Assembly (NCBI GenBank): GCA_955651735.1
Contig: CATPAM010000076.1
Location: 1-14,658, forward strand
DNA length: 14,658 nucleotides
From: Candidatus Acidiferrales bacterium
GTDB lineage: Bacteria; Acidobacteriota; Terriglobia; Acidiferrales; UBA7541
Direction of reading: 5' to 3'
The notes beneath the pieces are model-generated. The model had not been told where the DNA came from. It saw only the letters and a program-made list of their open reading frames with translations, and did no database searches. Both the position numbers and the translations under genes were made by a program. Within the stretch, counting starts at the first letter, position 1. Each line of letters opens with the position of its first letter. This document shows, piece by piece, positions 1 through 10,670 of this stretch.

Positions 1-66
1 GAGACTCCATCGCCGCAAAAAGCGCCCTAACCTTTTTTTTTTTTTTTTATGGGGACTAAAGTTTTC
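1..66 (-). pseudogene. In-frame continuation of the priming phosphotransferase beyond an internal stop
   Basis: Reading on past the stop at 67-69 in the same frame gives a short unmatched stretch (ENFSPH), five lysines encoded by the A tract, then RLGRFLRRWSL at bases 33-1. In the WbaP/WcaJ/PglC-type phosphotransferase family a block of the form R-x-G-R-F-L-R-R-x-S-L sits just after DPR(V/I)T and just before DELPQ. The match in the correct frame and order means the catalytic domain continues out of the window. The upstream 390-residue product and this piece were therefore once one gene, or still are if the stop and A tract are sequence errors. The DPR(V/I)T residues themselves are not encoded; lysine codons occupy that spot. 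Too little lies inside the window to see DELPQ or GPRP. Confidence 0.75.
33..48. repeat. Homopolymer run of 16 T (16 A on the coding strand)
   Basis: Sixteen uninterrupted T bases on the given strand, the longest homopolymer I noticed in the window and strikingly out of place in a locus of mid-50s GC. It lies inside the reading frame of the priming phosphotransferase, at the position where the conserved DPR(V/I)T codons are expected, and its present length keeps upstream and downstream parts in the same frame. It could be a slippage tract, a scar or an assembly artefact. Confidence 0.95.
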
Positions 67-1239
67 TTAATTATTGCAATCGTCTGCAGCGGCCGGATCA
101 CGCGCGAGGTGCTTGGTAAGCATTTCTTCACATTCTACGTGCATGCTGCGGAATTTGATGCAGTGGAAATTACGCCCATTGCGACCGAGCCTTTCTTGAA
201 CGAATAAGACAGGGCCACCGGAATCTATTTTGATCAGAACAGCGAGCATCAGGCACAACGGAAAGACCAATAGTGTAATCACGGAACCCAATACAAGGTC
301 GAAAGTCCGCTTCAGCCAGCTATTCCAGGGCTTCGCTAGGTTATTTGAGAGCTTCAGCATCATTAGTCGCTCACGGAGGAAGCCGTCAATTTTCAAATTC
401 ATTAACGGTAATCCCCACAGTTGAGGCACGACATAGATGCTCTCACAACGCGGTTGCAAGCCATGCACGAGAGCTAACAGCTTTTCATCCTCCAAGTCGG
501 GCATGGCGATGAGCACGTCCCGGGCGCGTGTTTTGCCCATCTGCTCGGGGGCATCGGCGAGATTCCCCAGAACAAAGATAGGCTTATCTCGGCAAGTGCA
601 AAAACATTTGCCCTGGCGCATTGGATTATCGTCAAGTAGACCGACAACTTCGTAACCCAGGACAGGGTCTGAGGCAAGTCCTCGGATCGCCAACTTTGCG
701 GTATTGGTTGCTCCAAGAATCAAAATTCGTTTTCGCCACAGACCTACCACTCCCAAAATGCGCTTGGCCCAATAGCGCACCGTCGGCAGGACCATCAAGA
801 GAATAACCGCAGTCAGCATGATGGTCAGCCGGGACAAGACTGGTCCGCGTTGTACCAATGCGATGGCAGCAAAGATCACCATTAAGCCCGAGACGATTGC
901 CTTGGTTAGGTGACCAATTTCATTCCAGAGCGTGCGACGTTGGGTATAAAGACCTTCAACACCGAGGAATACCACCAGCAGCAGCCACAACCATCCAAAA
1001 TCCAGATAATGCCTTAACGGCAACCTTAAAGGCGACACGTGCGTATCGACAAGGGGTACTATATGGGCCCTTAAAAAGATAGCAGACCTAAGAGAGATGA
1101 GGATTGCCAGAACGTCCGCCAGAACAAGACAAAAGGCACAAAGTACTTGGCGGTGGTGTGCGAATGGACGTGGTTCGCCCTGCGTTTCTTCGTTCAACCG
1201 TGAAGGCAGGCGTTCGGGCGCCATCGTAGCAGTAGACAT
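67..1239 (-). CDS. Undecaprenyl-phosphate sugar phosphotransferase (WbaP/WcaJ-like), interrupted before the catalytic core ends
   Basis: Members transfer a sugar 1-phosphate from a nucleotide sugar to undecaprenyl phosphate at the inner membrane, starting repeat-unit assembly. Visible here: hydrophobic segments near residues 33-55, 84-98, 113-130 and 137-153; a Rossmann-like CoA_binding_3 region from about 170 (RILILGA) to 285; then KRTFDLVLG at 310-318 opening the sugar-transferase domain, a membrane segment at 319-338, and GPVLFVQERLGRNGR through KFRSM to 366. The family normally continues for about another 80-100 residues with DPR(V/I)T, SLDELPQ and GPRP, but a TAA stop ends this ORF at residue 390 (relatives are about 460-480). 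The frame later resumes in bases 33-1. The start is ATG at 1239 with AGGAG at 1244-1248. The 152-base gap from the GT4 gene shows no clear terminator or promoter. A CFCTC cluster at 212-216 is unusual. As written, the product should be inactive. Confidence 0.88.
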   Translation of the reverse strand: MSTATMAPERLPSRLNEETQGEPRPFAHHRQVLCAFCLVLADVLAILISLRSAIFLRAHIVPLVDTHVSPLRLPLRHYLDFGWLWLLLVVFLGVEGLYTQRRTLWNEIGHLTKAIVSGLMVIFAAIALVQRGPVLSRLTIMLTAVILLMVLPTVRYWAKRILGVVGLWRKRILILGATNTAKLAIRGLASDPVLGYEVVGLLDDNPMRQGKCFCTCRDKPIFVLGNLADAPEQMGKTRARDVLIAMPDLEDEKLLALVHGLQPRCESIYVVPQLWGLPLMNLKIDGFLRERLMMLKLSNNLAKPWNSWLKRTFDLVLGSVITLLVFPLCLMLAVLIKIDSGGPVLFVQERLGRNGRNFHCIKFRSMHVECEEMLTKHLARDPAAADDCNN

Positions 1240-9862: not shown

Positions 9863-10069
9863 TCAATCGCTGTCAACTCTCAACCCCCGGCTCGCACCCC
9901 TACCCAGCCATCCAATTCCGCCCCCCATTCTCGCGACGGCGCGGGCTAGAGCCAAAAATCGATGGCCCGTGGAGAGATCGTAGACGCGAACATGATGACC
10001 ACGCCGAGCGAGCTGTCGCGTACTGCGGGTGCCAATATATCCTGCACCCCCAGTTACTAGGACATTCAC
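9863..10069 (-). pseudogene. Truncated GalE-like NAD-dependent epimerase remnant (68 codons)
   Basis: The first ~40 residues from GTG 10069 read as the N-terminus of a UDP-glucose 4-epimerase-type SDR: VNVLVTGGAGYIGTRSTR (dinucleotide-binding G-x-G-Y-I-G), then HHVRVYD-LSTGHR, matching the usual V-Y-D-N-L-S-T-G-H-R with one codon (N) missing. After GHR the similarity stops and the rest (LALARAVARMGGGIGWLGRG…) is Gly/Arg/Ala-rich and unlike an epimerase. Relatives are about 310-340 residues, so nearly 80% of the enzyme is gone. No other frame of this stretch restores it. A strong AGGAGAG site remains five bases before the GTG, and the stop touches the wzx start, so it may still be translated. 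It looks like a deletion or recombination scar between upxY and wzx. A short functional peptide cannot be excluded. Confidence 0.75.
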
Positions 10070-10074
10070 AATGA

Positions 10075-10081
10075 CTCTCCT
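10075..10081 (-). promoter_or_regulatory. Strong Shine-Dalgarno before the epimerase remnant
   Basis: AGGAGAG on the coding strand, five bases upstream of GTG 10069, within the 22 bases between the upxY stop and the remnant. It shows the start of this broken gene is intact and that the gap is a normal operon junction. Confidence 0.65.
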
Positions 10082-10091
10082 GCGAAGCAGA

Positions 10092-10670
10092 TCACTCGCC
10101 GCTCGCCCTTGCCCTTCCCAGCAGCTCCAAATCTGTCGCCTCAACCTCGACTGCGGCGGCACGATGGATCAGATCAAGCGAGATGATCAAGCGCAGGCGG
10201 TTTTTCCTCCGAATGACGATCCCCTCGAGGCCCTCGAGCGGGCCCGCCTTGACTCGCACGCGCCGCCCGACAGTCAGGAATAGGTATGGCTCGGCTCGAA
10301 CCCCACACGCCAAACCCTTCTTTAGTCCCTCGACTTCGGCATCCGGCAACGCCGACGGCTGGCCATTGAACCCCACAATGGTTGCCACACCGGGAATCTT
10401 CAGCACTTGCAGCCGGTCGCGTATAGCCATGCGCACAAACACGTACCCGGGAAACAGCGGCATATCCAGTTCTACCCGCCGGTCTTTCCACCTCCGCACA
10501 GACCGGTACAGCGGCAGAAAATGTTCCACCGATCGCACCGTGAGCTGCTCGGCCACGCGTTTCTCGTGGTTCGCGCTGGTATATGCCGCATACCAGCGCG
10601 GCTCCAGGCCCTCACTTGGCAAAACTACCCCTTTTCGCGTGACCACATTGCTTACCGTAGAAGTGAACAC
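10092..10670 (-). CDS. UpxY-like NusG-family transcription antiterminator
   Basis: Specialised NusG paralogue of 192 residues. The NGN domain opens with RWYAAYTSANHEKRVAEQL (32-50 counted from the longer GTG at 10691), then HFLPLYRSVRRWKDRR and PLFPGYVFVRM (78-88), the conserved core, and IPGVATIVGFNG (99-110). A KOW segment follows: VGRRVRVKAGPLEGLEGIVIRR (141-162). In Bacteroides, UpxY proteins promote read-through of their own long polysaccharide operon; RfaH does the same in enterobacteria. The same role is inferred here for the 10-kb gene run downstream. I chose GTG 10670 because AGGAG (10681-10685) is ten bases upstream, while GTG 10691 has no ribosome site; the difference is seven residues outside the domain. 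It is preceded by an AT-rich spacer after wzz and followed by the epimerase remnant 22 bases later. Confidence 0.9.
   Translation of the reverse strand: MFTSTVSNVVTRKGVVLPSEGLEPRWYAAYTSANHEKRVAEQLTVRSVEHFLPLYRSVRRWKDRRVELDMPLFPGYVFVRMAIRDRLQVLKIPGVATIVGFNGQPSALPDAEVEGLKKGLACGVRAEPYLFLTVGRRVRVKAGPLEGLEGIVIRRKNRLRLIISLDLIHRAAAVEVEATDLELLGRARASGE

Follow-up and report, generated by a model that had tools for sequence, protein, structure and literature searches.

The closest described relatives of the gene at the start of this stretch are the WbaP-type undecaprenyl-phosphate galactose phosphotransferases (TIGR03022), among them Salmonella WbaP (PDB 8t53). An Asp-Glu catalytic dyad is named for these transferases in PMC10942596. 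The closest described counterpart of the damage found in the gene is Illumina cycle failure and phasing error. According to PMC3163567, bubbles and particles can obstruct the readout during a single cycle or several and frequently give rise to Ns and errors; phasing and pre-phasing mix neighbouring cycles.

The window, that is, the whole stretch of DNA analysed (14,658 bases), is contig C76 in full, one of 577 contigs of a draft genome that is 73% complete, which places base 1 at the end of a contig. Apart from the interrupted gene, the window is an exopolysaccharide locus. The features are as follows.

82-1239, minus strand: codons 1-386 of a WbaP-type large monotopic phosphoglycosyl transferase, spanning the N-terminal part, PF13727 and the beginning of the catalytic domain PF02397 (predicted from the ORF, Pfam and 382 of 386 residues identical to the relative P0001)
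49-81, minus strand: corrupted stretch, first 11 codons, with TAA at 67-69; the conserved block is still legible in register but noisy, 10 of the 11 codons carrying a single mismatch
34-48, minus strand: corrupted stretch, last five codons, each AAA, where relatives have the conserved DPRLT block; together with base 33 it forms a run of 16 A (A16)
1-33, minus strand: RLGRFLRRWSL, undamaged and still in the original frame, identical to P0001 at 11 of 11 residues
5451-6122: methyltransferase gene, scoring under the Pfam cut-offs
Within the exopolysaccharide locus: Wzi/PAP2 gene
Within the exopolysaccharide locus: Wzz-like, NusG-like, Wzx-like, O-antigen-ligase/Wzy-like and glycosyltransferase genes

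The ORF runs on the minus strand from 1239 to 70 and encodes 390 aa. PF13727 and positions 1-64 of PF02397 were found in it, each above its own cut-off, in the order expected of the WbaP type (TIGR03022). Against the TIGR03022 profile, the shortened ORF scored 219.9 bits, under the cut-off of 403 bits, its last quarter being missing due to the stop and the contig end. The closest relative in the protein search, P0001 (532 aa, 99% identical, uninterrupted, from a contig of 4,215 bases), passed the same cut-off with 426.7 bits, covered positions 1-178 of the 179 of PF02397 and aligned over residues 33-502 with the Salmonella WbaP structure 8t53 (E 6.1e-80). It is P0001 that shows these likenesses to WbaP; the window copy is broken off by the damaged bases and the end of the contig, and the assignment is to the class, without sugar specificity. 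Judged by its sequence, the gene itself is predicted to be an ordinary WbaP-type transferase. The catalytic Asp-Glu pair is presumably the DE of DELPQ; this DE comes after WSL in P0001-P0015, the best 15 of 681 relatives found among 7,997 candidates scored, and the corresponding position of the interrupted gene falls beyond base 1, off the contig.

The sequence-only reading of this DNA had placed the ORF stop at 67-69, followed in the same frame by ENFSPH, five lysines and a resumed catalytic block, RLGRFLRRWSL, at 33-1, and each of these points was borne out by the ORF and its same-frame translation, which continues up to base 1. The resumed block agrees with P0001 at 11 of 11 residues in register and is therefore not a chance match. 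The PF02397 (Bac_transf) match is not ended by the stop but reaches base 1 (312-1; positions 1-88 of the profile; 80.7 bits, with one TAA inside). The last 34 codons of the window submitted alone, a query too short to be informative and with the stop given as X, matched no Pfam family. The extent of the damage had been put at about 12 codons; however, comparison with P0001 shows 16 codons (window 34-81), 15 of them giving another residue, with the length unchanged. The five AAA codons belong to A16, which appears on the plus strand as T16 at 33-48 and is the sole A/T run of at least 12 in the 3.26 Mb draft. The transferase had also been called the only initiating transferase visible; this holds for the 73%-complete draft at the Pfam cut-off, where a profile search of the 577 contigs found PF02397 above cut-off nowhere else and a sub-threshold match of 12.7 bits on contig C1.

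In the comparison with relatives, the missing block was present with no length change in all 15 aligned proteins (P0001-P0015), uninterrupted and without the lysine block. Between the window and P0001, 4 of 386 codons differ before the block, 15 of 16 inside it and none of 11 after it. The four upstream differences are possibly strain differences. At residue 359 (window 163-165) the window encodes His, where the 15 aligned relatives have Arg; this could be a strain difference or one more miscall close to the end of the contig. The comparison with near relatives was made at the protein level only and the expected DNA was derived through the 99%-identical protein, hence synonymous errors are invisible to it. 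Searches of genome contigs with the ORF for DNA of relatives found none, those with the alignment A2 (16 of 120 listed proteins) found just one 37% relative (L039), and no relative was found among viral contigs.

The damaged stretch still carries the gene, and its first 11 codons fit the expected ones in register. Turning the 11 noisy codons into the P0001 peptide takes at least 10 base changes, one per codon in 10 of them. After 200,000 codon shuffles the mean was 18.9 and eight shuffles were as good (4e-5), and 13 of 100,000 base shuffles reached the same fit (1.3e-4). Additionally, the correct peptide fits best among the 522 11-mers of P0001 (10 changes, the next needing 12), and among the 25 registers between -12 and +12 bases the true one is the best (10 changes against 14-23 for the others, the second best being -1 at 14).

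The wrong bases also follow their neighbours. If each base is allowed to be either the expected one or the neighbour that follows it in the gene, and synonymous codons are picked for the best fit, 31 of the 33 bases are explained; base 67, which makes the stop, is one of the two outside this next-neighbour rule. For comparison, we ran simulations in which 10 codons each received a single random substitution that changes the residue, under the same best-synonymous treatment and with approximate base weights. Only 14 of 10,000 simulations were as good for the next-neighbour rule, whereas offsets of -1, +2, -2, +3 and -3 were not unusual (6984, 6410, 9894, 1056 and 2440 of 10,000 as good, respectively). 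With six offsets tried, the 14 in 10,000 corresponds to about 0.008 after correction. A first run of 400 simulations with offsets +1, -1, +2 and -2 gave the same picture. By analogy, the neighbour-base pattern appears dephasing-like.

The sequence-only reading had left two explanations side by side, a recent lesion or an error in the published sequence; the second is strongly favoured by the contig end, the exact length, the spread of single wrong bases over 10 of the 11 noisy codons, A16, the neighbour pattern and the uninterrupted P0001, and the first is left without support. From these comparisons we conclude, with high confidence, that the stop and the A run are most probably a sequencing or assembly artefact at the contig end and that the gene would be uninterrupted in the organism. 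The errors are dense, consist of substitutions only, lie at the contig end and are absent from near-identical relatives, as in an artefact. They are also of the base-calling type (in-register substitutions and neighbour carry-over), with the exception of the stop base 67. Substitution-only in-register errors, neighbour carry-over and a block of one base are shared with Illumina cycle failure and phasing error as described in PMC3163567, although the assignment here is by pattern only.

Under the artefact explanation, the organism very probably carries an intact gene for a WbaP-type undecaprenyl-phosphate sugar-1-phosphate transferase. About 48 bases would have been miscalled, first 33 with frequent carry-over from the neighbouring base and then 15 called A, as missing calls or dark cycles, after which the sequence regains register for 33 bases before the contig end. 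A read that passed through a run of failed cycles and later recovered would produce the exact length, the neighbour carry-over and the signal-less block together, and is presumably also why the sequence recovers past the A block. We infer that this contig end may rest on a single short read, or very few, in which imaging failed over several cycles. Given how base callers and assemblers generally work, the A block could reflect either no signal or N turned to A by software.

If the change were real, a recent clustered mutation with an A-tract would have killed the transferase and left the exopolysaccharide locus without its priming enzyme. The stop does stand in the published sequence, the draft has no other Bac_transf domain above cut-off, and a relative that looks naturally truncated exists (G024:C5, matching only residues 351-505 of P0001 and containing a TGA in the searched frame). 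However, a real lesion needs at least 18 residue-changing base differences within 48 bases (10 + 8), all the differences lie within 81 bases of the contig end without any change of length and are followed by full identity to P0001, and the next longest A/T run in the draft is 11 (runs of at least 9 were listed). A real lesion is not expected to keep the exact length and then return to full identity, and we consider this explanation very unlikely. Equally hard to credit is that real DNA suffered a tight burst of substitutions which kept length and register, ended in an A-tract and silenced the priming transferase of the strain; a mutational process of this kind is not known to us in these genes.

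Surface-sugar genes are known to use long homopolymers for phase variation, and A16 might be read as a contingency tract at which slippage switches the gene on and off and so varies the surface polysaccharide. Against this, in the reading frame the TAA at 67-69 precedes the tract, and slippage within the tract therefore cannot restore reading; the tract replaces conserved codons instead of lying beside them, and at the protein level none of the 15 aligned relatives has the lysine block, which makes such a switch extremely improbable. A chimeric join, in which the contig was wrongly fused to a fragment of another PF02397 gene, would suit the site, since errors of that sort may arise at contig ends, but it can be practically discounted, with both sides matching P0001 in the same register at the exact spacing and the intervening stretch still fitting the correct codons.

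Recognition of the probable artefact averts a false pseudogene call and with it a false story of lost exopolysaccharide priming. Even without reads, a misread stretch of coding sequence can be identified from its register, the per-codon spacing of its mismatches and the carry-over from neighbouring bases, measured against a near-identical relative. The case is also a reminder to treat the ends of draft contigs with caution.

The distribution of this transferase was surveyed in related genomes. The shortened ORF matched 35 of 36 genomes of the genus at E 0.001, with E values of 5.5e-22 or weaker outside its own genome, and at 1e-40 it matched one of 89 family genomes, its own. P0001 matched one of 399 class genomes (a sample) at 1e-80, again the own genome, and two of 95 order genomes at 1e-60, the own genome and a piece in G024. 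The transferase ORF (70-1239) thus finds nothing at E 1e-40 or better among the 88 other family genomes, while on the same contig the Wzi/PAP2 gene shares 70% identity with a gene of the same-genus genome G035. On this distribution, the transferase type may have been exchanged between lineages. Mis-binning of the whole contig was considered because the transferase is without a close match in the family, and it found no support, given the Wzi/PAP2 match in G035; some match to the Wzi/PAP2 gene was found in 51 of the 61 family genomes sampled. A single search of the draft for the rpoB domain gave no match.

Two other frames were noted. Between the NusG-like and Wzx-like genes of the window lies a 99-aa frame (9866-10162, minus strand) that matches just the first 31 positions of PF01370, the NAD-dependent epimerase domain, barely above the cut-off (E 1.3e-4), and looks like a remnant of a sugar epimerase gene. 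The piece in G024:C5 (L043, 1546-2094) is a 182-aa frame whose match to P0001 is 70% identical and restricted to the residues given above, the TGA falling within the wider frame; it looks like a natural truncation, unlike that of the window.
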